Source: Tateyamaria sp. ANG-S1 (GTDB lineage: Bacteria > Pseudomonadota > Alphaproteobacteria > Rhodobacterales > Rhodobacteraceae). From it: DNA of 64,000 nt. The stretch is taken from the NCBI RefSeq assembly GCF_000814025.1, contig NZ_JWLL01000001.1, positions 1 to 64,000 of the forward strand, written 5' to 3'. A model generated the notes under the pieces. That model ran no database searches, was not told the origin of the DNA, and saw only the letters and a program-made list of their open reading frames with translations. Each line of letters starts with the position of its first letter. Position 1 is the first letter of the stretch. The translations under genes were made by a program, and so were the position numbers. Of this stretch, positions 4,939 through 34,918 are shown in pieces.

Positions 4939-6387
4939 ATGGAAATGCCCATTCCCGATTCTGATGTACTGGCGCGCAAGGCCCGTGTGGTCGAGCGGTT
5001 GCGCAGTGTGTTACCCGCCGATGCGGTGATCGACGACCCGATGGAAACGCGGGCCTATGAGTGTGATGCGCTTACGGCCTATCGCTGCCCGCCCATGGTG
5101 GCGGTGCTGCCTGCCACGACGGCGGAAGTGTCGGATGTGCTGCGCATTTGCCATGAAGAGGGCGTGCCGGTTGTCCCACGCGGCTCGGGCACCTCGCTTG
5201 CGGGCGGTGCGCTGCCCACCGCAGATTGCGTGATCCTGGGCGTCGCGCGCATGAATGACGTGATCGAGACGGACTACGACAACCGCTTTATCCGGGTGCA
5301 AACAGGGCGGACCAACCTGAGTGTGACCGGTGCGGTGGAAACGGACGGCTTTTTCTACGCCCCCGATCCGTCGAGCCAGTTGGCCTGTGCCATTGCAGGC
5401 AACATCGCGATGAACTCGGGCGGGGCGCATTGCCTGAAATATGGCGTCACGACCAACAACCTGCTGGGCGTGACCATGGTGCAGATGGACGGGACCGTGG
5501 TCGAAATCGGGGGGGCGCATCTGGATTCCGGGGGGCTCGATCTGCTCGGTGTCATTTGCGGGTCAGAAGGGCAGTTGGGTGTTGTGACCGAAGCCACCTT
5601 GCGCATCCTGCACAAGCCCGAGGGCGCGCGGCCCGTGCTGATGGGTTTTGACAGCGCCGAAGTGGCGGGGGCCTGCGTCGCCGACATCATCAAGGCGGGC
5701 GTGCTGCCCGTGGCCATCGAGTTCATGGACAAGATGCTGATCGAGGTCTGCGAGGATTTCGCCAAGGCGGATTATCCGAAATGCGGCGCGCTGTTGATTG
5801 TTGAGGTTGAAGGCTCTGACGCCGAGATCGACGCGCAGCTTGCGCTGATCACCGACATTGCCAAGCGGCACAACCCGGTCGCCCTGCGCGAAAGTGCGTC
5901 GGCCGACGAAAGCGCGCGCATCTGGGCCGGGCGAAAGGCCGCGTTCTCGGCCATTGGGCGGATCAGTGACTACATGTGCCTGGATGGGACAATCCCCGTG
6001 TCGGAACTGCCTTACGTCCTGCGCCGCATCGGTGAGATGTCGGAGAAATATGGCCTGCCTGTGGGCAACGTGTTCCATGCAGGCGACGGCAATATGCACC
6101 CGCTGATTTGCTATGACGCCAACAAGCCGGGCGATTTGGAACTGTGCGAGGAGTTCGGAGCCGAAGTGCTGAAGCTGTGCGTCGAGGTCGGCGGCTGCCT
6201 GACCGGTGAACATGGTGTGGGCATCGAAAAGCGTGATCTGATGACCCACCAATACGCGCCCGCCGATCTGGAAGCGCAGATGGCCGTGAAGGACGTGTTT
6301 GATGCTAAGTGGCTGTTAAACCCTGCCAAGGTATTCCCCTTGGCGGTGTCTGAGCCGCGGCGTGGTGCGGCATTGGCAGCGGAGTAA
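4939..6387 (+). CDS. glcD: glycolate oxidase subunit GlcD
   Basis: 482-aa FAD-linked subunit of glycolate dehydrogenase, oxidising glycolate to glyoxylate. An FAD-binding PCMH domain near the N-terminus is shown by VPVVPRGSGTSLAGGALP (about residues 75-92) and GNIAMNSGGAHCLKYGVT (about 155-172). The C-terminal FAD-oxidase domain carries NVFHAGDGNMHP (about 376) and GEHGVGIEKR (about 422). ACGGAGG at 4925 sits 7 nt before ATG 4939. The frame continues upstream without a stop, but that extension lies in the divergent promoter region. It is the first gene of glcD-glcE-membrane protein-glcF. Confidence 0.93.
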   Translation: MEMPIPDSDVLARKARVVERLRSVLPADAVIDDPMETRAYECDALTAYRCPPMVAVLPATTAEVSDVLRICHEEGVPVVPRGSGTSLAGGALPTADCVILGVARMNDVIETDYDNRFIRVQTGRTNLSVTGAVETDGFFYAPDPSSQLACAIAGNIAMNSGGAHCLKYGVTTNNLLGVTMVQMDGTVVEIGGAHLDSGGLDLLGVICGSEGQLGVVTEATLRILHKPEGARPVLMGFDSAEVAGACVADIIKAGVLPVAIEFMDKMLIEVCEDFAKADYPKCGALLIVEVEGSDAEIDAQLALITDIAKRHNPVALRESASADESARIWAGRKAAFSAIGRISDYMCLDGTIPVSELPYVLRRIGEMSEKYGLPVGNVFHAGDGNMHPLICYDANKPGDLELCEEFGAEVLKLCVEVGGCLTGEHGVGIEKRDLMTHQYAPADLEAQMAVKDVFDAKWLLNPAKVFPLAVSEPRRGAALAAE

Positions 6388-6410
6388 GGGGGCCAGCCCC
6401 CTCGGCCTTG

Positions 6411-6446
6411 CGGCCTCACCCCCGGAGTTTATTGGGCAAGATGAAG
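6411..6446 (+). repeat. 36-bp repeated element, copy A (divergent)
   Basis: Ends in GGAGTTTATTGGGCAAG followed by ATGAAG. 27 of 36 positions match copy D (34926-34961); differences lie mostly in the 5' GC-rich half. It lies between glcD and glcE and includes the ATG used here as the glcE start. Confidence 0.6.
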
Positions 6447-7562
6447 ATGAGCATGTTGACGTCAGAAGATGCAGTTGCGCAGGCGATGGCAGAGGCCAAG
6501 GGCCCCTTGGTTATTCGCGGCGGTGGCACCCGCACGGTGGGTCGCCCTGTGGTGGGTGAGGTTCTGGATGTATCGGGTCTGTCCGGGGTGACGCTGTATG
6601 AACCCGGCGCGCTGACTCTGGTCGCGCAGGCGGGCACGCCGGTGGCCGAGATTGAGTCGGCGTTGGCGGCGGAGAACCAGCGGCTTGCTTTTGAGCCCTA
6701 TGATTTGACCGGCGTGTTGGGCACTTCGGGTGCCTCGACCATTGGTGGGGTGATTGCCACCAACGCAAGCGGGCCGCGCCGTATCATGGCGGGTGCGGCA
6801 CGCGATTTTGCGCTGGGCGTCCGTTTTGTCGATGGCACCGGGCAGGTGATCAAGAACGGTGGGCGCGTGATGAAGAACGTCACGGGCTACGATCTGGTCA
6901 AGCTCATGAGCGGGTCGTGGGGCACTTTGGGCGTGCTGACCGAGGTGAGCCTGAAGGTGCTGCCCTCGGTCGAGGCCGAGACGACGCTTGTGATTGACGG
7001 GCTGGCTGCGGACCAGGCGGTGCTGGCGATGAGCCGGGCGCTGGGCTCGCCTTTTGAGGTGTCGGGTGCGGCCTGGGTCGCGGGTCAGGTCTGGCTGCGG
7101 CTTGAAGGGTTCGAGGGCTCTGTGGCCTATCGCGCGTCACAGTTGAAAACCTTGCTGGCCGCGTTTGGCGACATCGCTGAGATGCAGGTCGACTGGCGCA
7201 CCGTACGAGATGCAATGCCGTTGCATGGGGCGGATGCGGTCTGGCGCATCTCGGTTAAGCCCAGCGATGGGCCAGCGGTGATTGCAGCCTTGCCCAAGGG
7301 GACCGACACGCTGATGGACTGGGGCGGCGGTTTGGTCTGGGCCGGGCATTCCGGTGGCGACATTGCAGCGACGCACTCTGCGGTTCAGGCGGCAGTGGCC
7401 GCGATGGGCGGCCATGCAACGCTGATCAAGGGGCCGGACGCGGTGCGCTCAGCAGTGCCGGTGTTCCAACCCGAAGCGCCCGGCGTGGCCGCACTCACCG
7501 CATCCTTGCGCCACAGGTTCGATCCCAACGGCATCCTGAACCCCGGGCTGATGGCCGCCTGA
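6441..7562 (+). CDS. glcE: glycolate oxidase FAD-binding subunit GlcE
   Basis: 373 aa, a shorter relative of GlcD with only the PCMH FAD-binding half well conserved: LVIRGGGTRTVGRP near the start, GVLGTSGASTIGGVIATNAS around residue 100, and KNVTGYDLVKLMSGSWGTLG around 150. The start is uncertain: ATG 6441 lies inside repeated element copy A, and ATGs at 6447 and 6453 follow in frame; none has a strong ribosome binding site except GGAG at 6424. The stop overlaps the next ATG by 1 nt. It acts with GlcD and GlcF as a membrane-associated glycolate dehydrogenase. Confidence 0.9.
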   Translation: MKMSMLTSEDAVAQAMAEAKGPLVIRGGGTRTVGRPVVGEVLDVSGLSGVTLYEPGALTLVAQAGTPVAEIESALAAENQRLAFEPYDLTGVLGTSGASTIGGVIATNASGPRRIMAGAARDFALGVRFVDGTGQVIKNGGRVMKNVTGYDLVKLMSGSWGTLGVLTEVSLKVLPSVEAETTLVIDGLAADQAVLAMSRALGSPFEVSGAAWVAGQVWLRLEGFEGSVAYRASQLKTLLAAFGDIAEMQVDWRTVRDAMPLHGADAVWRISVKPSDGPAVIAALPKGTDTLMDWGGGLVWAGHSGGDIAATHSAVQAAVAAMGGHATLIKGPDAVRSAVPVFQPEAPGVAALTASLRHRFDPNGILNPGLMAA

Positions 7563-25154: not shown

Positions 25155-25273
25155 TTAAACTATGACATACAGGGTTGAATTTGTTTCACTCTTTGTAGCC
25201 TGAGTTTGCGGCCTAACTGAGAATCGCGTACCGTCAGATGCGAGCGGTGCGCGTTCAACAATTAGGCCCCCAC

Positions 25274-26359
25274 ATGCTGGCTGATCGCCATCCTTTTCAG
25301 GACGAACGCCTTGACGCGCTACGTTCATATGACGTGCTCGACACCGCTTACGAAGCCGAGTTTGACAGTATTGTCGATGTCGTGGCTGACCTCTGCGAGG
25401 TGCCGATTGCCCTGATCAGTCTGGTGGACGGCCAACGGCAATGGTTCAAGGCGGTCAAGGGGCTGGACGTGCCCGAAACGCCGCTTGAATCCTCGATCTG
25501 CTCGCACGCCATCCTCGAAGGCGACCTGGTCGAGATCGAAGACACCCATGCCGATCCGCGTATGGACGGCAATCCGCTGTGTGTGGATGATGCGGGCCTG
25601 CGCTTCTATGCGGGCGCGGTGCTCAGGTCGCCCGATGGCCTGCCGCTGGGCACATTATGCGTGCTGGATCGGCGCCCCCGCACGCTTACCGATCCGCAGC
25701 GCAAAATGCTCAAGGTGCTGGCGGGGCAGGTCATGGCGCAGTTCGAACTGCGCCGTACCCTTAAGCAACAGGCCATCCTGCACAGCGAGGCGGATCACCG
25801 GATCAAGAACTCGCTCCAGATGCTGTCGTCGCTCACCCGGTTCCAAAGCCGCGTGTCGGAGCTCGACGAAACGCGCGAGGCGCTGGATGCCGTCGGCCAG
25901 CGGATCGAGACGATGGGCCGGCTGCACGAGGTTTTGCAGGCGGGCAACGTTCAAACCCATGTGGACCTCGACGACTACCTGATCCGCATCGTGGATTTCC
26001 TGACCGAACAGTCGCCGGAACACGTGATGATCGACACCGCGCTGTCGCACATTCGCATGACCCCATCCCGCGCCGCGTCCATCGGGATCGTGCTGAACGA
26101 ATGGGTCACAAACGCCTACAAACACGCATTCCCGTCAGAACGTCCCGGCACGATCCGGGTTACGGTGACGGATATGGGATCAGGGACCGCTCAACTTGAA
26201 GTGGCCGATGACGGCTGCGGCACGACGGTCGAGACGCCCACCCGCCGCTCCGGCCTTGGCACACAGATCACGGACGCGGTCGCGCAGGCGCTTGACGGCA
26301 CGCTGACGGCAGATGCCAATGCCTTCGGCACCCGCCACCGGCTGCTTTTCGCCGTCTGA
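25274..26359 (+). CDS. GAF-domain sensor histidine kinase (HisKA_2 type)
   Basis: 361 aa (373 if started at 25238). A GAF domain covers about residues 20-150 (VPIALISLVDGQRQWFKAV, SSICSHAIL, LGTLCVLDRRPRTL). The dimerisation/phosphoacceptor region has SEADHRIKNSLQMLSSL with the His, typical of HisKA_2 kinases. The HATPase has NEWVTNAYKHAFP (N box) and VADDGCGT. Cytoplasmic, no membrane segment, no response regulator adjacent. Neither possible start has a clear ribosome binding site. Sits directly upstream of the unusual AAA+ operon; a functional link is conceivable but not shown. Confidence 0.83.
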   Translation: MLADRHPFQDERLDALRSYDVLDTAYEAEFDSIVDVVADLCEVPIALISLVDGQRQWFKAVKGLDVPETPLESSICSHAILEGDLVEIEDTHADPRMDGNPLCVDDAGLRFYAGAVLRSPDGLPLGTLCVLDRRPRTLTDPQRKMLKVLAGQVMAQFELRRTLKQQAILHSEADHRIKNSLQMLSSLTRFQSRVSELDETREALDAVGQRIETMGRLHEVLQAGNVQTHVDLDDYLIRIVDFLTEQSPEHVMIDTALSHIRMTPSRAASIGIVLNEWVTNAYKHAFPSERPGTIRVTVTDMGSGTAQLEVADDGCGTTVETPTRRSGLGTQITDAVAQALDGTLTADANAFGTRHRLLFAV

Positions 26360-26417: not shown

Positions 26418-26449
26418 ATGTAAATGCGTGTTACATTGCCTATATGTAA
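26418..26449 (+). promoter_or_regulatory. operator-like triple half-site array
   Basis: ATGTAA (26418-26423), TTACAT (26431-26436) and ATGTAA (26444-26449): three half-sites in alternating orientation, each starting 13 bp after the last, giving two overlapping palindromes. It lies 30-61 bp before the coiled-coil gene start, overlapping the expected promoter. Probably the binding site of a regulator of the operon. Confidence 0.55.
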
Positions 26450-26478
26450 CGCAACACATTGAACGTAGAGGACATTTT

Positions 26479-27555
26479 ATGGCCGATTTCGCAAGTCAGG
26501 TGGCAGAATCTCAATCCCAGGTGGCCGAGGCGCAACAAAAGATCTCGGAACTCACCAGCCGGATCGAGGCGGCGCGGTCCAAGATGAAGTCGGGCGATGA
26601 CATCTCGATGGACATCGAAAACGCGACGCTCGAGGACGTCCATGCCCACACCGACGTGATGAATTCTAACATCGCCGAGCTGATCATGGGTCTCGACGAT
26701 GTCACCGCTGCATTCTCCAAGGATTTTGACGAGATGCGGTCCAAGACAGGCTGGGAAAGCTTTGTCGGCATCTTTGCCAAGGCCAAGTCGGAGAGCATGC
26801 GGCAAGAGCGCGTGCGCTCTGCCTCGATTGACGACAAGCTGCAGGATCTGATCTCGAAATCCGACGTGATCGTGCAGTTGTTGCAGGGTCAGCTGACCAT
26901 GCTGGAAGATCAGAAAACGAAGGTCGAGGCCAACCTGACCGAAACGCTGGACGAGCGCGAATTCACCGTGCAGGAACTTTCCGCCCTGCAAGCCGACATC
27001 CAGGCGATGGAGCCGCAGACCATCACGCTGGAAAACAAGATCGCATCCGAAACCGACGCAGCCAAGCGCACGGCGCTTGAGACGGAACTGGCCGACCTCA
27101 ACTCGAAATACAACGAGATGGTGCAGGAAGAGCAGGTCAAGGTGGCCAAGTCCCAGACGCTTGAGCGCTATATCGAAAAGGGCAAAACCTGGGTGGACAG
27201 CCTGCAAAACCAGGCTGCGACCCAGATGGTGCTGATCAACAAGCTGCAAACAGACACCAAGCAGCGTGTGGTGCTGTATGATGCGCTTACGAAGTCGCTG
27301 AAAACGGCCCAGCAACAGGACGTCGCCCACCGCATCAACGAGATCGGCGTGAAGACGGACCAGGAGGCGCAAACCGCCATGGCCGGGATCGGTGCGGCGA
27401 CGAACGCCCGCATGGCCGACATGCTGGAAGCGCACGAAGACCAGATGGTCTTTGCCCGCGACGTGCTGGAGCAGAAGGCGAAGGCGGATGAGCGGTTTGC
27501 CCGGCGCTTCGCTCAGATTGTCGAGAAGCATGACAGCAATGCGTATGGTGGGTGA
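26479..27555 (+). CDS. long coiled-coil protein, first gene of the AAA+ operon
   Basis: 358 aa, almost wholly predicted coiled coil: about residues 5-40 (QVAESQSQVAEAQQKISELT), 120-190 (QLTMLEDQKTKVEANLTETL) and 190-260 (ENKIASETDAAKRTALETEL). A shorter helical tail ends in ERFARRFAQIVEKHDSN. No signal peptide or membrane segment. GAGG at 26468 supports ATG 26479. The overall design recalls PspA/ESCRT-III-like or TelA-like proteins, but I see no diagnostic motif. Position with an AAA+ ATPase and membrane proteins suggests it is the polymer or scaffold acted upon. Confidence 0.75.
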   Translation: MADFASQVAESQSQVAEAQQKISELTSRIEAARSKMKSGDDISMDIENATLEDVHAHTDVMNSNIAELIMGLDDVTAAFSKDFDEMRSKTGWESFVGIFAKAKSESMRQERVRSASIDDKLQDLISKSDVIVQLLQGQLTMLEDQKTKVEANLTETLDEREFTVQELSALQADIQAMEPQTITLENKIASETDAAKRTALETELADLNSKYNEMVQEEQVKVAKSQTLERYIEKGKTWVDSLQNQAATQMVLINKLQTDTKQRVVLYDALTKSLKTAQQQDVAHRINEIGVKTDQEAQTAMAGIGAATNARMADMLEAHEDQMVFARDVLEQKAKADERFARRFAQIVEKHDSNAYGG

Positions 27556-27564
27556 GGTCAGTAA

Positions 27565-27933
27565 ATGCTGACTGGCATGGCCGGGGTTCTCTACGGCTTT
27601 CTTCTGATGATTGCGACTTTCTTTCGTGTTGTTTTGCCAATCTTAGCGATTTGGTTGCTGATGGTGATGGCCGCGATGGCTTTGGGGTATTCATCGGGCG
27701 ATGCGGTTGGCTTTTCGTCAGCCTTGATGATGCCTTTTGTGCTTTTCACTTTCGTCGTATCGGCGCCTATTTTGTTTGGCAGTTACTTTGAAATCTTCAA
27801 AAGTGTGGGGCCGTTTCAACAGCGCCTCAACAACTTCTCTCCAAATGAGGCTTCGAAGATTGTGGCGCGAAACAAGCTAAAATCGCGAAATCTATGTCCT
27901 CCGAAATTTCGCTGGATCACGGGCCTAGAATGA
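27565..27933 (+). CDS. small low-G+C membrane protein
   Basis: 122 aa. Two or three membrane segments in the first 75 residues (LLMIATFFRVVLPILAIWLL, then VLFTFVVSAPILFGSYF) and a basic cytoplasmic tail (IVARNKLKSRNLCPPKFRW). It overlaps the next gene as ATGA at 27930-27933. G+C is visibly lower than both neighbours, so it may be a later insertion that kept coupling. No family recognised. Confidence 0.65.
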   Translation: MLTGMAGVLYGFLLMIATFFRVVLPILAIWLLMVMAAMALGYSSGDAVGFSSALMMPFVLFTFVVSAPILFGSYFEIFKSVGPFQQRLNNFSPNEASKIVARNKLKSRNLCPPKFRWITGLE

Positions 27934-29045
27934 CCAAACCTGAAACCTCCGGCCTCACTGATCTCTTCGCCTCCCGCCGTTACTTCAAGAAATTCGAGAC
28001 GATCACCGGGCACCTCGCCCGTGTCGCAGGCGTGATGGAAGCCGAGGGCGATCTGAACCGGGACGAGGTCAAGATCCTCACCCGCTACATCGCCGAGTTG
28101 ACCTTCACCTTCCGCGCGCTCAGCCAGAAGTACCTGCTTGTCGGGCGCGACACCGGGCGGTTCTTCGGCTCGCTTGCCATCGACAAGCGCTATAGCGGTT
28201 TTCCCGCGGCCGAAGAACTGCTCACCATGGCCTCGGACGCGATCCAGGCGGGCGTCCATCTCGATCGGATCGACCCGGCGGATGAGCTGAAAAAGCAGAT
28301 GGTCGAGGTGATCATCGGCGACCGGCAGGTGCCCACGAAACTGCAATTCGCCCTGTCCCAGCGGCTCTACTACGAGGACCTGCAACGCGGCCAACTCTTC
28401 TGGCCCCGCAACGACCCGCAAATCGTCTGGACCGGCAATCTGAGCGACGACCGCCGCAGCTTCCGCATCCATTGGGCCGTCTACGACACCGAACTGAACC
28501 TGCCCGTCATCTACATGATGGAGGTTGAGGACACGGGCCGCACAGCCCTGCCCAAGGACCCCCGCCGCTGGCCCGAAGCGCAGGCGCATCTGATGGCGCA
28601 GTCGCTGGGCAAGCTGAAGCTCGTGACCATCGCCAAAGGGTTCGACGAGGATTTCGACGACATCCACCCCAAACGCCTGCGCCGCTTTTACGTGGGGCCG
28701 ATGTACTCCTCCGCCTTCACCGCGCAATCGGGGCCCATCCTCGATGTCCTCAAAGCCGCCCGCGCGCCCGAAGGGCAAGACTGGGCGCTGGTCTGGACCG
28801 AGGAAGACCTGCGCTCCGAACGGGTGATCGAGGAACGCTCCGGCTGGTTCTCCTCCGTCGAACGCCAGATTTTCACGCTCGATCCGTTCTCGCATCACGG
28901 CGCGGATATTGGTGCCACAAGGATGCAACGCAGCATCGTCTTGCCCCAACGGGCATTCCAGGCGCTGCAAGAAATGAACCCGCAGGGCTTCGGCTCCGTC
29001 CGCAAATTCGTGGTTAGCCCGTCGGGTCGGGTCCTTCGGTATTGA
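27930..29045 (+). CDS. unknown 371-aa protein of the AAA+ operon
   Basis: Soluble, no signal peptide, no family known to me. N-terminal 150 residues helical (FKKFETITGHLARVAGVMEA, RDEVKILTRYIAELTFTFRA); the middle looks like mixed strands (FRIHWAVYDTELNLPVIYMM, then DTGRTALPKDPRRWPEAQAH), and the C-terminus has RMQRSIVLPQRAFQALQEM. The start at 27930 is fixed by the ATGA overlap. Its place next to the AAA+ gene suggests an adaptor or regulator of the ATPase; inference from position only. Confidence 0.7.
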   Translation: MTKPETSGLTDLFASRRYFKKFETITGHLARVAGVMEAEGDLNRDEVKILTRYIAELTFTFRALSQKYLLVGRDTGRFFGSLAIDKRYSGFPAAEELLTMASDAIQAGVHLDRIDPADELKKQMVEVIIGDRQVPTKLQFALSQRLYYEDLQRGQLFWPRNDPQIVWTGNLSDDRRSFRIHWAVYDTELNLPVIYMMEVEDTGRTALPKDPRRWPEAQAHLMAQSLGKLKLVTIAKGFDEDFDDIHPKRLRRFYVGPMYSSAFTAQSGPILDVLKAARAPEGQDWALVWTEEDLRSERVIEERSGWFSSVERQIFTLDPFSHHGADIGATRMQRSIVLPQRAFQALQEMNPQGFGSVRKFVVSPSGRVLRY

Positions 29046-29066
29046 CGGGTGGGACAGGTGGTAAAT

Positions 29067-29102
29067 CGGCCCTCCGGGGGGAGTTTATTTTGCAAGATGA
29101 AG
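29067..29102 (+). repeat. 36-bp repeated element, copy C
   Basis: Begins CGGCCCTCCGGGGGGAG and ends TTGCAAGATGAAG; 33 of 36 positions match copy D. It fills most of the gap before the AAA+ gene. Its ATG (29097) opens a 7-codon frame whose TGA (29118-29120) overlaps the AAA+ start codon. Confidence 0.8.
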
Positions 29103-29116
29103 CAGGGAATCAGTGA

Positions 29117-31051
29117 ATGAGCCAAACGTCAGATCAGATGGAACTGCGCGAGGCCGAGATTACGGCGCATTACCCCATGGCGCTGTCCATGCTGCAGGGG
29201 TTCGACCATGCCCCCCGGATCGGGAAGGGCAAGGAGGTGGCGCAGCAGGAACGCTCAAGCGGTGTGGGCACCCGCCGCCGTTTCCGCACCACGACGCCGG
29301 GCCTTGTCACCCGCCGCACCGTGCCCACCGGGGCCGTGCAACTGATGGCCACCATCGAGGGGGCCGATGACGACGACGCGCTGATGTCGCCCGTGCAGGC
29401 CACCACGCTCAACGCCCTGCGCCGCGCCATCTCTATCGCGCTGGCGGTGGCCGAAAACTACGCCTCTGTTTCCGGTCTTGGTGATCTGAAACGCGCCAAC
29501 CTCGAAGGGGCCCTGCCCGCCGCCCGCAAGACCGAGTTTGCCGAGCTGCTCGCCGCAGAGGCGCTCATCACCCTCTACGTCTTCGGCAACGCCACTGCCT
29601 ACCTTCTCTCGGCCCACCAGACCGAAGTTACGGCCGAGGTGGGTGAGATCGAGGAAATCCTCACCGACAACGGTCAGACCGCCCTGCACGGCTGCCTCTG
29701 GGAACTCGACCAGGACATCGCCATCCACGCCCCGGACGACGCCCACCTTGTCGCCACGATCACCGCCTTTGCCGAGGCGCTGATGGAAAAGGTGTCCTTG
29801 CGCGCCCAGAACGCCCCGCGCCTTGCCCCCTTCACCGGGGCCTCATGGCATGTTGAGGCCGACGACTTCACCGTCCAGGGCTTTACCCCCGCAACGAAGG
29901 CCAAGACCCAAACCCTCACCATGACCTTCAAGAAACCGCACGAGGTCGTGGGCAACCATATCGCCAAATACCAAGCCATGAAGCTCGCCAAGATGCTGAT
30001 GGCCTATGATTTCGACCGGCGGCTCAACCCTTTTGCCGAGTTGGGCGGCTTCATCTTTACTTTCATGGGCGACGGCAAGCCCGGCACGGGCAAAACGACG
30101 CTGATCCAGATGATGGCCGGTCTGATCAACGACTATTGCAGCGTCGCGGGCTACGCCTTCCGCTACCAGAACCTGTCGACGGACAACATCGACAGTTACC
30201 AGGGCAAGTCGGGCCAGAACGCCAAGGCGTTCATCTCGAACGTGCTCGATCCGGGCGTGATCGGCTTCGGCACCATCGACGACATTGACCAGCTGGCGGG
30301 CAAGCGCGGCGACCGCCAATCCTCCGCCGGGCAGCTCGAAATCACCGCCGTGCTGATGGAGAGTTTTGCCGGCGCCAACACCGTCGTGCGCGGGAACTGC
30401 ACCTTCGGCATGTTCTCGAACTACCCCGAGAATGTGGACGACGCCCTGCGCCAACGCGCCGGGGCGCGGTTCCTCGTGGACGGGCCGCAAACGCGTGAGG
30501 ACTATATCGACATCCTCGCCCTGCTGATGGGCAAGAACCACGACATCCCCATGGGCGCGCACGAACTGTTCTCGGCCCAGGAGATCAAGAAAGCGGTGGC
30601 GGCGTCCTTCGACAGCCACAACCGCCCGCACGAGGCGGGGCTGATGGACGTGTTCGACCGTGTGCATTCGGACGTGGGCGAGTTGGACACGATTGCCAAG
30701 CTGGGCACGTATCTCAAGGCGATCCAGCAGGCGGATGAGCGCTTCACCGGCCGCGCGATCAAGAACATCACGGACGCGGTCAAGGTCCGCGCCATGGATT
30801 TCGAACTGCCCGACGAGTGGATGGAAAACCCCGAGCTGTTCCTGTTCAAAACCTACGACGAGAAGAAAGCGATGATCGAAGACCTGCGCGTGCCGATCAC
30901 GGTCGACATGGTGGTGCAGGAGATCAACCGGTACGCGGATTCTGAGTTCCGCTATGCAGACAAGTCGGACGAAGTCGCGATCGAGGCGATGGTGCGCGAC
31001 TTCGGACGGCAGGAAGAGGCGAAGAAGCGGTATTTGGGGGGTGAGCGATGA
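29117..31051 (+). CDS. AAA+ ATPase of unknown system
   Basis: 644 aa. Residues 1-300 have no recognised domain: an Arg/Thr-rich stretch (TRRRFRTTTPGLVTRRT) and then helices. The AAA+ core follows: Walker A GDGKPGTGKTTLIQ (about 317-330), Walker B IGFGTIDDIDQLAG (about 382-395), and an arginine-finger candidate in DALRQRAGARF (about 442). The C-terminal 180 residues are helical. Cytoplasmic ATPase likely driving remodelling of the coiled-coil or membrane partners encoded around it. The ATG overlaps TGA of a 7-codon leader, and its own stop overlaps the next gene as ATGA. Confidence 0.85.
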   Translation: MSQTSDQMELREAEITAHYPMALSMLQGFDHAPRIGKGKEVAQQERSSGVGTRRRFRTTTPGLVTRRTVPTGAVQLMATIEGADDDDALMSPVQATTLNALRRAISIALAVAENYASVSGLGDLKRANLEGALPAARKTEFAELLAAEALITLYVFGNATAYLLSAHQTEVTAEVGEIEEILTDNGQTALHGCLWELDQDIAIHAPDDAHLVATITAFAEALMEKVSLRAQNAPRLAPFTGASWHVEADDFTVQGFTPATKAKTQTLTMTFKKPHEVVGNHIAKYQAMKLAKMLMAYDFDRRLNPFAELGGFIFTFMGDGKPGTGKTTLIQMMAGLINDYCSVAGYAFRYQNLSTDNIDSYQGKSGQNAKAFISNVLDPGVIGFGTIDDIDQLAGKRGDRQSSAGQLEITAVLMESFAGANTVVRGNCTFGMFSNYPENVDDALRQRAGARFLVDGPQTREDYIDILALLMGKNHDIPMGAHELFSAQEIKKAVAASFDSHNRPHEAGLMDVFDRVHSDVGELDTIAKLGTYLKAIQQADERFTGRAIKNITDAVKVRAMDFELPDEWMENPELFLFKTYDEKKAMIEDLRVPITVDMVVQEINRYADSEFRYADKSDEVAIEAMVRDFGRQEEAKKRYLGGER

Positions 31052-32079
31052 TCAAGAAACGCTCCGGGGGAGCGTTTCCATCGCGAACGGGCGGAGCCCC
31101 ATTACGAAGCTCGTACAAAGCCGTTACATTCTTGTTCGTTTTGATCTTTGCGATTTTTGTGTTCGCGCAAGGCCATGCCCGCACATGGAAGGAATCCATT
31201 GAAATAGTTGAAGAAAAGTCAGAAGAACTCTGGCAAAAAGGCTTGTCGCTCGGTGGCTTTGGTCACTTAGGAACGGCATACAACGAAATTGATATTCCCA
31301 AGCACCGTTGTGCCATTCTGGGGCGCATGTTTGAGATGTCAGACGTCATTTCCCATCTCGAACATCATCCGGAACCGGAGTTGTCGGATTCGCCGAGTCC
31401 GGATGAAATTCATGCACTCATGGTTTACGCTCACTCGTTGAGTAACTGGGCGTTTGTCGCCTCGCATCTGCTTGAACAAAATGAAGAAACGCGCAAGCAA
31501 GTTTGGAACCTGGATTGCGTAGGAAAGATGGGGATTGGGAAACAATATGCGCTTCCGGTTGTCGATAGCGCCGCAAAATTCCGCGTCGAACAGCATGATC
31601 TTTTGGTACTAGGAAACATAGTAAGCGGGTTCGCTGAAAGCCTGGAACTCAAGTTGTCAGAAAACCCAGGAATAGATCGTGTTGTCCTAGGTAGTGGGGG
31701 CGGCAATGTCGTCGAAGCTCTTCACGCTGGTGTGCTAATTCGAAAGCTGGGGCTGAAGACTACATTGGGACAAAGTTGCTATTCTGCGTGTCCGCTCGTC
31801 TTCCTTGGCGGTGTTGAAAGAACAGTTTGGTCGCCATACCCAAAACTCGGATTCCATAAACTGTCTGACGGTGAAGGGGATGCAATCGGTACTACACACC
31901 CGGCCTATTCCTTAATCTTTGACTATGTGAAAGCCATGGGGAGCGATCCGAACTTTGTTTTAGCCAGTATTTTGCGGGCCGAACCTTCCGATATGTACGA
32001 GCCAACACTTTTGGATTTGTGTGAGTACTACGTGGTTACGTGGGTACAACGGGCTTGTTTCGGCGGTGACAAACAATGA
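31048..32079 (+). CDS. ClpP/SppA-like serine protease homologue, low G+C
   Basis: 343 aa. A basic start is followed by one hydrophobic segment (AVTFLFVLIFAIFVFAQGHA, about residues 24-43), so it is exported or membrane-anchored. The C-terminal half has the ClpP/crotonase fold pattern of COG3904-type periplasmic proteins: VVLGSGGGNVVEALHAGVLI, then QSCYSACPLVFLGG with the candidate nucleophile Ser (about 246), then KLGFHKLS with the candidate His. G+C is well below adjacent operon genes. A 10-bp inverted repeat (31056-31078) sits inside the first codons, so the true start may be later. ATGA overlaps on both sides. Confidence 0.7.
   Translation: MIKKRSGGAFPSRTGGAPLRSSYKAVTFLFVLIFAIFVFAQGHARTWKESIEIVEEKSEELWQKGLSLGGFGHLGTAYNEIDIPKHRCAILGRMFEMSDVISHLEHHPEPELSDSPSPDEIHALMVYAHSLSNWAFVASHLLEQNEETRKQVWNLDCVGKMGIGKQYALPVVDSAAKFRVEQHDLLVLGNIVSGFAESLELKLSENPGIDRVVLGSGGGNVVEALHAGVLIRKLGLKTTLGQSCYSACPLVFLGGVERTVWSPYPKLGFHKLSDGEGDAIGTTHPAYSLIFDYVKAMGSDPNFVLASILRAEPSDMYEPTLLDLCEYYVVTWVQRACFGGDKQ
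31056..31078 (+). repeat. perfect 10-bp inverted repeat at the 5' end of the protease-like gene
   Basis: GAAACGCTCC (31056-31065) and GGAGCGTTTC (31069-31078) with a GGG loop, directly after the overlapping start/stop junction and at the edge of the low-G+C segment. Confidence 0.75.
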
Positions 32080-32369
32080 CCCTCCTCCTCGCCACAACCA
32101 TCGCCGCCCTCATCCTCGGCACCTTCCTCCCCCTGCGCTGGGGCGTCTTCGGCTTCCTCGCCGCCGCTGCCCTCCTGTTCCTCACCCAAGCCGCCATCCA
32201 CACCCTCATGGGCTTCGAAGGCACGCCGCTCTCTGAAACCATGCTGCTCTTCAACAACTCCTGGCCTGCCTATATCGGCTACAACCTCCAGATCACCGTC
32301 CGCAGCTTCGCCCTGCCGCTTCTGGCCCTCTCCACCCCGCTGATCTTCCGCATGGGGAGGCGCGCATGA
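32076..32369 (+). CDS. small membrane protein, 97 aa
   Basis: Hydrophobic N-terminal half with two segments (LLLATTIAALILGTFLPL and FGFLAAAALLFLTQAAI) and a third near the C-terminus (FALPLLALSTPLIF). It overlaps both neighbours by 4 nt (ATGA), showing tight translational coupling. No family recognised. Confidence 0.75.
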   Translation: MTLLLATTIAALILGTFLPLRWGVFGFLAAAALLFLTQAAIHTLMGFEGTPLSETMLLFNNSWPAYIGYNLQITVRSFALPLLALSTPLIFRMGRRA

Positions 32370-32662
32370 TCCTGACCGGCATCATCGCAATGGGCCTGAT
32401 CGTGGTCGCCGCATGGCTCCTGCCGCCGTACATCAAGCGCGCGCTGCCGTTGCCGGAGTTCCTGTTTGGTATGGTCTGCACCAGCGCCATCATCGGGATC
32501 GCTGCTGTGATGGTCCTCCTCATCCAAGCCATGGGGCTACCGCTGCCAATCATTGGCCCCAGCGGGGACGCAGGCTTTGCCAACGCGCTCCTGTCACTCT
32601 CCATGCCCAGCGTCGGCGTGCTGGTCATCCGGCTGGCGCAACTTAGGGGGACCCGCCCATGA
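32366..32662 (+). CDS. small membrane protein, 98 aa
   Basis: Three hydrophobic segments: ILTGIIAMGLIVVAAWLLPP, VCTSAIIGIAAVMVLLIQAM, and a third containing LLSLSMPSVGVLVIRLAQL. It overlaps the genes before and after by 4 nt. Probably a partner of the 97-aa membrane protein; no family recognised. Confidence 0.75.
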   Translation: MILTGIIAMGLIVVAAWLLPPYIKRALPLPEFLFGMVCTSAIIGIAAVMVLLIQAMGLPLPIIGPSGDAGFANALLSLSMPSVGVLVIRLAQLRGTRP

Positions 32663-33990
32663 TCCGCCTCATCCAACGTGGCCTCATGTTCGGCAACCTC
32701 TTCCACGTGGCCTCACCTGCGCTGGTCGAACGCTACAACCGCGCGCTCGAACATCTCACGGGCAAGCGCACCGCCCTCACCGACTTCTACATCGACATCT
32801 CCGGCTACTCGCCCGAGGTGGGCAACGAGCTGAACGACCCGCTCTACCTCAACCACAACGGGGTCAATCGGCAGTTCATCCTGCTCTCGACCGAACAACG
32901 CAAATGCCCGCTGCTCGACGCGGAATTCTCCACGTCCCAAGGTATCCTCAAACGGTTCATCGCCGAAAACGAGGCGGCGCTCTTTGCCCTCACCGCCCGC
33001 GACGCCGTAGCGGGGGAGCTGGTGAACTCCGTCTACGACATCTCCAGCCCCGCGCGGCTGTTCGATCTGCGCGCCATCACGGTCGAGGCGGACACCACGC
33101 GAGGCACCGTCCGCAACGCCGCCAGACTGGCGGAGAAGGTGGACACGTTTCTGCAAGAAGACGAGGCCTGGTTCGACGACGTCCTGATTGGCGAGATGAT
33201 CCAGCTTGCGGGCCAGACCGGCGACGTCAGCCGCAACCCCGTTTCGCTCAAGCCCATGCGCGTGGAAAAAGGCAACTTCTGGACGTCGCATTTCGGCGGG
33301 CTCTACATCTTCCAGACGCTTGACCACCCGGCGACCATCGCGGCGACGGAGAAGCCCGAGGATGTGCCGACCAAATACACCTTCGATCTGACCCAACGAA
33401 ACCGCATCGCCAAGTTCCTCGAATACAATGACTTGGTCGAACCCATCGTCAAAGCGCGGGGAATCGATGGCGCGGCCATCCTGAAGCAAAAGATGGACTT
33501 CATTCTCGTGTCCGCCGTGACCGAAGCGGGCGTCGATCTCGCCGGCACCACACGCCGCGACATGCGCAGGCTTGCCCGCGACCACGGGCATTTGCTGCCC
33601 GATGAATTCCACGGTCTGGCACAACTGGTCGACTGGGCCGAACACGGCGGCAAATGGCCCCGCATCAGCTCCGAACACCCGGCCTATTTCTACACCCTTC
33701 GCGCCGCCGATACGCCTGACGCAGACCTCGTCAACATGCTGCTGTCGGAACTCAGCCCGCGCGACGTGCGGCAACTCTTCATCTGCCACAAACAGGCGTT
33801 CTACGCGGCTTACGCCACTTGGGCGGACGCGAAAAAGGAATATGTCGCACAGTATCTGGAAGATGAGTACAAAGCCGACAAGGCGGGCGCGCGCGAGGCG
33901 CTCTTTGGGCACGATGCCCCCATGGAACCCGACCCGCAGCCCCGCGACCTAATCGCGCGCGTGGGGCCCTGGGGCGCAGTACGGAGGTAA
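32659..33990 (+). CDS. DUF6638-like protein
   Basis: 443 aa, soluble. I associate it from memory with the DUF6638 family found in Rhodobacterales. It starts MIRLIQRGLMFGNLFHVASP. Striking features are IDISGYSPEVGNELND early, then LSTEQRKCPLLDAEFSTS, and a helical C-terminal half (FICHKQAFYAAYATWADAKK). No catalytic motif is obvious. Coupled to the preceding membrane protein by ATGA overlap, it is a core part of the block; function unknown. Confidence 0.75.
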   Translation: MIRLIQRGLMFGNLFHVASPALVERYNRALEHLTGKRTALTDFYIDISGYSPEVGNELNDPLYLNHNGVNRQFILLSTEQRKCPLLDAEFSTSQGILKRFIAENEAALFALTARDAVAGELVNSVYDISSPARLFDLRAITVEADTTRGTVRNAARLAEKVDTFLQEDEAWFDDVLIGEMIQLAGQTGDVSRNPVSLKPMRVEKGNFWTSHFGGLYIFQTLDHPATIAATEKPEDVPTKYTFDLTQRNRIAKFLEYNDLVEPIVKARGIDGAAILKQKMDFILVSAVTEAGVDLAGTTRRDMRRLARDHGHLLPDEFHGLAQLVDWAEHGGKWPRISSEHPAYFYTLRAADTPDADLVNMLLSELSPRDVRQLFICHKQAFYAAYATWADAKKEYVAQYLEDEYKADKAGAREALFGHDAPMEPDPQPRDLIARVGPWGAVRR

Positions 33991-33994
33991 GGAC

Positions 33995-34258
33995 ATGGCC
34001 GTAGCGAGACTGTTTCTGATCGCCCTCGTGGTGCTGACGGTGATCTACTTTTCGCTGTCGCTCTATTCACGCGCCCGGGCCCGCGACCGGTTGGAGGCCG
34101 AATGGGACGAGGGCGACAAACCCGGCCCGCGCGAGGCTTACATCAAACACGGGCTCGCTGATTATGATGGCTCGCTGCGGCGCAAGCTGATCCTCGGGGT
34201 CTATATCGTGCCCATGGCGCTTGTGTGCCTTATCATCTACCTTGTGAACTTCGCCTAA
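33995..34258 (+). CDS. small membrane protein, 87 aa
   Basis: Two hydrophobic segments, residues 5-23 (LFLIALVVLTVIYFSLSLY) and near the C-terminus (GVYIVPMALVCLIIYLV), joined by a charged loop (RLEAEWDEGDKPGPREAYIK). Starts 4 nt after the DUF6638-like stop, preceded by ACGGAGG. A hairpin-shaped inner-membrane protein in the AAA+ operon. Confidence 0.78.
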   Translation: MAVARLFLIALVVLTVIYFSLSLYSRARARDRLEAEWDEGDKPGPREAYIKHGLADYDGSLRRKLILGVYIVPMALVCLIIYLVNFA

Positions 34259-34270
34259 AAGGACCCCGCA

Positions 34271-34918
34271 ATGCGTTACATCGGCTGGACCCTCCTGATC
34301 ACCTTCTGGGTCGCTTTCGGAGCGTTCCTGCACTACACCCTACCGCAACGCGACATCGTTCGGATCGTGAACACCTACGAGGAACGGCAGGAGCTGGGCG
34401 ACTGGACGCGCATGTTCTGGTCGCGGCCCGACACGCAGTCCGACGGGCTGATCAACCGCGATGTGCAGTTCATCCAGACAGTGCGCGCCAATGGGCGGCC
34501 CATGGTCTACCGGAACGAGGACACGGGCTGGAGCTGGCCGCCCTATTTCAAGTTCGACACCTCGAACCTTTATACTGAGGCAGCGGATTCCGTGTCGCCC
34601 CGCGCAGCTCCTGAATGGTACGTGATCACGCATTACGGCTGGCGGAACGAGTTCCTGACGATCTTCCCCAACGCGATCTCCCTGCGGCGGGTGGACGGGC
34701 CGGACGCCTCCAAGGGCATCCCGTGGATCAACATCCTGATCCTAACGACCATCGCGGCGATCTTCTACGCCACCTGGGTCCGCTGGCGGCGCTTCCGCCG
34801 GGCGCGGATCGATCCCAAGCTCGAAGAAATGCAGGACAGTTGGGACGCGGCCGGGGACGCGGTCTCGGAAAAGCGGGGCCGGTTCCAGCGCTGGCTTGGC
34901 ACTTGGAAAGCCAAGTAA
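34271..34918 (+). CDS. DUF1523 family membrane protein
   Basis: 215 aa. N-terminal membrane anchor (YIGWTLLITFWVAFGAFLHY), then a periplasmic domain with RDIVRIVNTYEER and WSWPPYFKFDTSNL, then a second membrane segment (WINILILTTIAAIFYATWV), then a basic cytoplasmic tail with ARIDPKLEEMQDSWDAAGD. This matches DUF1523 proteins of Rhodobacteraceae. Last gene of the AAA+ operon, followed by repeated element copy D. Confidence 0.82.
   Translation: MRYIGWTLLITFWVAFGAFLHYTLPQRDIVRIVNTYEERQELGDWTRMFWSRPDTQSDGLINRDVQFIQTVRANGRPMVYRNEDTGWSWPPYFKFDTSNLYTEAADSVSPRAAPEWYVITHYGWRNEFLTIFPNAISLRRVDGPDASKGIPWINILILTTIAAIFYATWVRWRRFRRARIDPKLEEMQDSWDAAGDAVSEKRGRFQRWLGTWKAK

Follow-up and report, generated by a model that had tools for sequence, protein, structure and literature searches.

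The operon at positions 26,418 to 34,918 of a 64,000-nucleotide stretch of Tateyamaria sp. ANG-S1 (contig NZ_JWLL01000001.1; the whole stretch is referred to below as the window) raises the question of what a compact run of ten genes around an AAA ATPase does, and which of the ten belong together. A first-pass annotation made from the letters alone had described a ten-gene membrane machine of Rhodobacterales, in which the ATPase would act on a coiled-coil scaffold to remodel or protect the envelope. That interpretation is partly supported by the comparisons reported here: an AAA unit with a coiled-coil protein, linked to membrane proteins, is conserved, but a ten-gene machine is rejected, as four of the ten genes are not conserved. 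The main new result is that, beyond its conserved genes, the operon consists of hypervariable cargo, and our favored but tentative reading is that the locus may be a conflict system, probably anti-phage, in which a four-gene AAA module controls swappable effectors.

Gene order and slot contents

Ten consecutive open reading frames (ORFs), all on the + strand, span window positions 26479-34918. Five adjoining pairs overlap by four nucleotides in ATGA (P0002/P0003, P0004/P0005, P0005/P0006, P0006/P0007, and P0007/P0008), where six had been counted earlier, and the junctions without overlap have gaps of 4 to 71 nt, in keeping with the earlier upper value of about 70 nt. A hydropathy scan makes five of the ten products membrane proteins, the number first given, and P0005 adds one N-terminal hydrophobic segment. 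Pfam names three of the ten (AAA, DUF6638, and DUF1523), to which NCBIfam, PADLOC, and PHROGs add weak or generic matches. Promoter- and terminator-like sites at the locus were not above the numbers found in shuffled sequence. In the following list, slot A is the interval between the coiled-coil gene and P0003, slot C is that between the ATPase and DUF6638 genes, and core denotes the four-gene module.

26479..27555, + strand: P0001, coiled-coil protein, first core gene, no transmembrane (TM) segment by hydropathy; present in 78 of 80 named loci
27565..27933, + strand: P0002, 122-aa three-TM cargo of slot A, GC 0.48; no relative among the slot ORFs
27930..29045, + strand: P0003, soluble core protein of 371 aa without a known family
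29117..31051, + strand: P0004, AAA ATPase, core; Walker A, Walker B, and sensor 1 intact, arginine-finger candidates
31048..32079, + strand: P0005, 343 aa, N-terminal hydrophobic segment, weakly protease-like; cargo of slot C, GC 0.49
32076..32369, + strand: P0006, 97-aa three-TM cargo of slot C; clusters with 13 other members
32366..32662, + strand: P0007, 98-aa TM cargo of slot C; clusters with 5 other members
32659..33990, + strand: P0008, DUF6638 (PF20343, by Pfam profile), core
33995..34258, + strand: P0009, 87-aa two-TM protein that accompanies DUF1523
34271..34918, + strand: P0010, DUF1523 (PF07509, by Pfam profile), membrane protein that also occurs without the core

Searching with the ATPase yielded at least 562 confirmed loci, 80 of them among the matches listed, and the closest ATPases in those matches are from Tateyamaria (98% identity). 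Some genomes sit in more than one locus set (for example, L032/L074, L043/L059, and L073/L208). Identical ATPase DNA and identical ORFs were removed from the counts of distinct loci (96 loci, 89 loci, and 150 ORFs), and duplicates are included in the 224-ORF clustering, the 82/91 strand count, the 113-ORF and 49-ORF sets, and parts of the GC and pair counts. The order coiled coil-P0003-ATPase-DUF6638-P0009-DUF1523 is complete in 89 of 96 distinct neighborhoods, and of the seven that are incomplete, four run into contig ends. These six genes are colinear in all of 13 neighborhoods, where P0002 and P0005 were each found in none, P0006 in two, and P0007 in one, and 84 further loci have the same order except L067, L077, L099, and L116 (cut), L053 (no P0009 match, the rest of the order kept), and the untruncated L108, with the ATPase only, and L114, where the 10 kb downstream lack DUF6638, P0009, and DUF1523. 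Flanking genes are rarely shared among the 80 named loci (next upstream, 2; second upstream, 33; next downstream, 7; second downstream, 23), where the coiled coil is found in 78 and DUF1523 in 75, so the order is kept beyond general synteny and is conserved independently of the flanks. Conservation of gene order across Rhodobacterales, a check set out beforehand with the first-pass annotation, thereby holds for six of the ten genes, and the scatter of homologues that was to count against that annotation is not what the loci show. P0005, which had been listed as a ClpP/SppA-like protease homologue, is rejected as a part of the core, since only 2 of the 84 loci hold a relative (a match in L117 and a partial one in L064). 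P0002, P0005, P0006, and P0007 are, on this comparison of sequences, lineage-specific slot content with fast turnover.

The extent of this turnover is clear from clustering. Slots A, B, and C of the first locus set hold 224 ORFs, which fall into 120 clusters, 90 of them singletons, and slot C of Rhodobacterales in both sets holds 150 distinct ORFs of at least 90 aa that fall into 55 clusters, 34 of them singletons; the ORFs were called mechanically, and some look spurious, such as several without TM segments. A slot-C homologue is common to only 17 of 134 locus pairs with ATPases at least 95% identical, a count that leaves out L071, whose ATPase frame is a fragment. Ruegeria loci with ATPases 94-97% identical differ in slot C, where L093 has an AbiJ-type protein, L094 an Mrr restriction enzyme, L100 an orphan of 254 aa, and L122 a small TM protein.

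The slot ORFs are also coupled to the operon. Of 89 distinct loci, 76 have an ORF of 50 aa or more that begins between -8 and +15 relative to the ATPase stop, exactly at -4 in 52 of them, compared with 23% of shuffled slots behind the same start, and the longer slot ORF lies on the + strand in 82 of 91 loci. This strand bias and the coupling of the ORF start to the ATPase stop are evidence that many slot ORFs are operon genes. GC at the third codon position exceeds that at the second in 101 of 112 slot-C ORFs. Two or more hydrophobic segments occur in 105 of 150 slot-C ORFs compared with 14 of 113 flank ORFs (Fisher p 9e-22), a comparison made by hydropathy only and across related loci that are not independent. 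Median GC is 0.53 for slot-C ORFs, 0.60 for the adjacent ATPase, and 0.59 for flank ORFs, with GC below that of the ATPase in 88 of 112 slot-C ORFs and 66 of 111 flank ORFs; in the window, P0002 and P0005 have 0.48-0.49, P0006 and P0007 0.64-0.65, and the six conserved genes 0.58-0.63. As far as sequence can tell, the core is conserved and its operon-coupled cargo is exchanged rapidly, the pattern looked for in a conflict system with swappable effectors.

One explanation for such a pattern would be a permissive insertion hotspot, with a core of unrelated function whose operon gaps gather mobile, low-GC hitchhikers. The low GC of the cargo, the DUF559 gene and IS4-type transposase in the slot of Sinorhizobium meliloti, and the slots that are empty in some lineages all fit this explanation, but the strand bias and the start of an ORF at the ATPase stop far above the shuffled frequency do not. 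Slots in Rhodobacteraceae are moreover kept filled, as indicated by a slot ORF of at least 50 aa in 93 of 98 loci of the first set and in all 33 further Rhodobacteraceae loci (a few genomes are in both), and we consider a mere hotspot unlikely.

The core proteins and their membrane partners

The ATPase matches the Pfam AAA family (PF00004) at E=3.1e-11 and 44.3 bits against a cut-off of 21.2, with Walker A at residue 320, the Walker B region at 383-391, a sensor-1 Asn at 435, and arginine-finger candidates at 445-451, which bears out the intact motifs first reported for it. These key residues are invariant in 13 of 13 aligned sequences, and in a wide alignment the nucleotide motifs of the AAA core are nearly invariant down to 40% identity, with a variable N-terminal region. 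AAA ATPases are ring-shaped protein remodelers. Against solved structures, a single-sequence phmmer search places Fidgetin-like 1 first (E=1e-4) and gives Vps4/SKD1 as 11 of 17 ATPase matches; a 13-row profile reached no match at 0.01, and the wide profile ranks VCP-like and proteasomal AAA first.

DUF6638 was recognized correctly at the outset, as P0008 matches PF20343 over its full length (E=3.8e-229, 1-439 of 439). P0010, left unnamed then, is a full-length DUF1523 (E=5.8e-67, 1-176 of 176). For the coiled coil and for P0003, described earlier as a 371-aa protein of no known fold, no credible family was found: Pfam, NCBIfam, PADLOC, and PHROGs, with Pfam rerun on 11 members of each, gave only weak, coiled-coil-type, or chance-level matches, and profile searches of the Protein Data Bank (PDB) returned no credible match for either protein or for DUF6638. 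PADLOC adds weak REase_II (3e-4) and LmuB matches on the coiled coil and an AbiZ match (0.04) on P0009. The coiled coil is best conserved in its C-terminal half, and the conserved positions of P0003 and DUF6638 are mostly aromatic, proline, and glycine. P0003 and P0008 were compared as possible relatives of each other, and this was rejected.

Likeness to PspA, one of the two analogies first drawn, did not survive comparison. With hhalign, PspA/IM30 (PF04012) reached 12.8% with an earlier alignment, and with the deeper one it beats all 60 shuffles of the coiled coil but fails the reversed control (22.0 vs 25.6); PF04012 is absent from the Pfam matches of the window protein and of 11 diverse members. 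A different possibility is distant kinship of the coiled coil with TelA, which would make the module a relative of TelA-containing stress loci. TelA (PF05816) scores above both controls in local (25.4; reversed, 21.5; best of 60 shuffles, 20.7) and global alignment (13.3; reversed, 3.4; best of 60 shuffles, 12.6), but at an hhalign probability of 1.5-2.6% that is far from significant, and the shuffle control is a weak one, since PspA also beats all 60. TelA is also absent from the Pfam matches of the 11 diverse coiled-coil members, and a true TelA gene lies elsewhere in the same genome, away from the locus (L149, G000:C23, about 6267-7259), near a frame that we take to be SPFH/YdjI-like. We regard kinship with TelA as very improbable.

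P0009 and DUF1523 also occur apart from the four genes they adjoin. DUF1523 was found in 88 of 100 genera of the family, one genome each, and it occurs in 14 hand-picked core-less genomes, with P0009 adjoining in 10 of the 14. Since the rhizobial, Vibrio, and viral loci hold only four of the genes, and since the P0009-DUF1523 pair occurs without the core, the module is defined here as the four genes coiled coil-P0003-ATPase-DUF6638, and P0009-DUF1523 is, from its predicted TM segments and its distribution, an independent membrane pair beside which the module sits in Rhodobacterales. Elsewhere a different membrane partner recurs: in Sinorhizobium, Rhizobium, and a viral contig, DUF2333 adjoins either the coiled coil or DUF6638. 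On R. leguminosarum pSK03, a diverged coiled coil adjoins DUF2333 (L169, 8881-11235), with the other three module genes absent from 18.9 kb, and G453 (C1448) and G511 (C23), both outside the listed ATPase-positive genomes, have a diverged coiled coil near DUF2333. A coiled coil beside DUF2333 without the ATPase implies that the coiled coil is tied to the membrane protein independently of the ATPase. In Ruegeria (L078-L100), the DUF1523 pairs listed are about 62-72% or 83-97% identical, with ATPase and coiled coil about 94-99% identical, and DUF1523 may be exchanged among these strains too.

These recurring partners, P0009-DUF1523 and DUF2333, bear directly on the envelope-stress or membrane-remodeling machine first proposed, in which the inner membrane would be the place where an AAA ring acts on the coiled coil, and the small membrane proteins that vary would be lineage-specific adaptors or clients instead of weapons. 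They speak for it, as do the many multi-TM proteins among the cargo and the Vps4/SKD1 share of the single-sequence structure matches, the part of the earlier Vps4/PspA analogy that found some support. The failure of the PspA comparison speaks against it, and housekeeping adaptors would not be expected to swap between species with ATPases 94-97% identical, nor would Mrr, AbiJ, and putAbiC proteins be expected among them. Envelope remodeling stays a live rival, with well under an even chance of being right.

Cargo families and a possible immune function

The cargo is mostly without family. In the first set, Pfam matches at E<=0.001 are limited to at most 7 of 113 slot-C ORFs (putAbiC, 2; AbiJ_NTD4, 2; Mrr, 1; DUF2971, 1; DUF3825, 1); an HNH match in L073 (0.0012) and a HEPN hint in L062 (0.0036) miss this threshold and also score under the cut-offs of their own profiles. 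Five of the seven matches are thus to families named for abortive infection or restriction, the processes in which AbiJ, AbiC, and Mrr-type proteins function. The putAbiC protein of L113 falls in a 15-member cluster of mostly two-TM proteins. As a control, 113 flank ORFs match 94 Pfam families, and the 25 inspected were ordinary (trypsin, HSP20, flagellin, and MotB among them). The protease assignment of P0005 found weak support, with a PHROG "protease" match at E=0.057; an unnamed PHROG scores 8.7e-5, the best Pfam match is a chance "Lysis_col" at 0.42, and the PDB gave nothing credible.

With these families in the slots and the rest mostly orphan membrane proteins, it seems possible, at some remove from certainty, that the locus is an undescribed bacterial immune system, in which a four-component AAA core arms, in Rhodobacterales, an open-ended set of exchangeable effectors. 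Of the four members of that putative immune core, two are without any known family and a third is a DUF, and the core occurs in Rhodobacterales and rhizobia as well as on Vibrio replicons and a large viral contig. The four-gene module, soluble by hydropathy, would work beside membrane partners, P0009-DUF1523 here and DUF2333 in some lineages, with the ATPase ring and its partners acting at the inner membrane as a combined sensor and switch. Detection of an invader, most probably a phage, would lead the ring to remodel the complex of coiled coil, P0003, and DUF6638 and thereby to unleash the cargo of slots A and C (in the window, P0002, P0005, P0006, and P0007) to execute the response. Small TM cargo would permeabilize the membrane and Mrr-type cargo would cut nucleic acid, and infection would be stopped. 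Exchange of cargo under a fixed core would be expected when phage countermeasures attack the effectors. Beyond the gene layout, these are steps that we infer.

Several observations weigh against an immune function. Within the family the core varies little, in contrast to many defense loci, and it matches PADLOC models only weakly. Abortive-infection or restriction families account for only 5 of 154 Rhodobacterales slot-C ORFs (150 distinct), and in the second set of 49 slot ORFs the only Pfam matches are to DUF559 (with the related MTES_1575), in 7; we assign these 7 to an eight-member rhizobial cluster, and the rhizobial DUF559 genes may be hitchhikers. PADLOC member-hits number 19 per 113 ORFs for slot C, 10 of them on the Mrr protein of L094, and 14 per 113 for the flanks. 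No slot ORF turned up in L034, L052, or L053, and slot C spans just 48 nt in L167 (Vibrio) and about 16 nt in L252 (viral contig).

The PADLOC matches of the flanks are apparently to trypsin- and MotB-like proteins caught by the LmuA and ZorB models, and defense enrichment of the cargo by PADLOC count was dropped, as cargo and flanks were not separated. If the immune reading is true, bacterial immunity gains a core without recognized relatives in an abundant marine group, and a slot between two conserved genes yields dozens of unknown membrane effectors. If instead the locus serves the envelope, it is a widespread, uncharacterized AAA machine whose operon contains a hypervariable site that needs explanation.

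Distribution and comparison with known systems

Within the family, the module is an all-or-none unit. Among 100 genera, one genome each, the coiled coil was found in 46, the ATPase in 45, and DUF6638 in 48, and in the 45 ATPase-positive genera all three genes are in the same genomes. The extras are in G827 (76% complete, partial matches), G853 (77% complete), and G805, where DUF6638 lies 529 bases from a contig start and the rest was not found. A single-sequence search located the ATPase in 29 of 61 relatives, the own genome included, and in 0 of 24 genomes outside the family. Profile searches found it in 7 of 385 class genomes, two of them outside the family, and, at the level of the phylum, in 26 of 398, of which 14 are from the own family; of the other 12, ten belong to a second alphaproteobacterial family with genomes of 5.5-7 Mb, one to a third family, and one lies outside the class. 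All six genes are present in other families too (L052, and L164, the latter outside the class), and five in L053 and L163.

The system had been attributed to Rhodobacterales, an attribution that proved too narrow. "Plasmid" records with the ATPase come from Sinorhizobium, Shinella, Rhizobium, and 0.88-0.94-Mb Vibrio replicons, and the four-gene unit without a P0009 or DUF1523 match is found in Sinorhizobium, Rhizobium, two Vibrio stretches, and three genomes of the 5.5-7-Mb family, which from the same arrangement and the presence of DUF2333 we infer to be rhizobia. Slot C of the rhizobial loci L160, L161, L162, L168, L222, L223, and L225 contains DUF559 endonuclease-like genes, several of which share a repeat-like upstream stretch, and that of S. 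meliloti holds a DUF559 gene together with the IS4-type transposase. In Vibrio vulnificus (L167, NZ_CP015514.1) and V. parahaemolyticus (L171, CP099927.1), the module lies beside an mfd gene on "plasmids" of 0.93-0.94 Mb, on which DUF2333 lies elsewhere, away from the module. The four genes keep their order on a 359-kb IMG/VR contig (L252, IMGVR_UViG_3300035698_035310), in a stretch of 35% GC where DUF2333 immediately precedes the coiled-coil gene and three small frames separate P0003 from the ATPase; neighboring frames are presumably SmpB-like, DnaJ-like, and an overlapping spanin pair, judged from the letters. Among GenBank phages, there was no match to the window ATPase, one partial match (26%) to the L252 ATPase, and no near match to the 14-kb stretch of L252.

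No single known anti-phage system in PADLOC-DB 2.0.0 (2023) is matched by the core, which has only weak matches to unrelated ones, and searches of the literature collection used here found no mention of DUF6638, four papers with DUF1523, one with DUF2333, and, among the matches listed for combined terms, no description of this locus. A close architectural parallel is with BREX and BREX-related loci, which are reported to have auxiliary effectors embedded in the operon (PMC12839542); the fixed multi-gene core with an AAA ATPase and the variable nuclease/HEPN-type effectors inside the operon are alike. The present locus differs from BREX in that no BREX protein is among the PADLOC matches of the ten proteins, no methyltransferase or PglZ was seen, and the cargo consists mostly of small membrane proteins. 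The AAA fold is shared with the CBASS accessory ATPase TRIP13 and with IetA, to which PADLOC gives weak matches (E=3.7e-6 and 0.0035). IetA is paired with a protease. Unlike in those systems, the family matches of the ten proteins include neither a HORMA protein nor a nucleotide cyclase, the partners are from unrelated families, and the protease-like gene is cargo only. The pairing of an AAA protein with a coiled coil in Vps4/ESCRT-III and PspF/PspA is a formal analogy, in keeping with the Vps4/SKD1 matches of the phmmer search but not with the PspA comparison or the wide profile described above. TelA is alike in length, helical make-up, and a weak profile signal above the reversed control, but differs in that there is no significant homology and a separate TelA is present in the same genome.

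Two minor observations concern related genes. SMc02733, reported once in a ChvI DNA-binding screen, may be this ATPase to judge by gene order, and no use was made of the assignment. The next ORF upstream of the operon (window 25238-26359), present in 2 of 80 related loci, looks from the letters like a GAF-type sensor histidine kinase.

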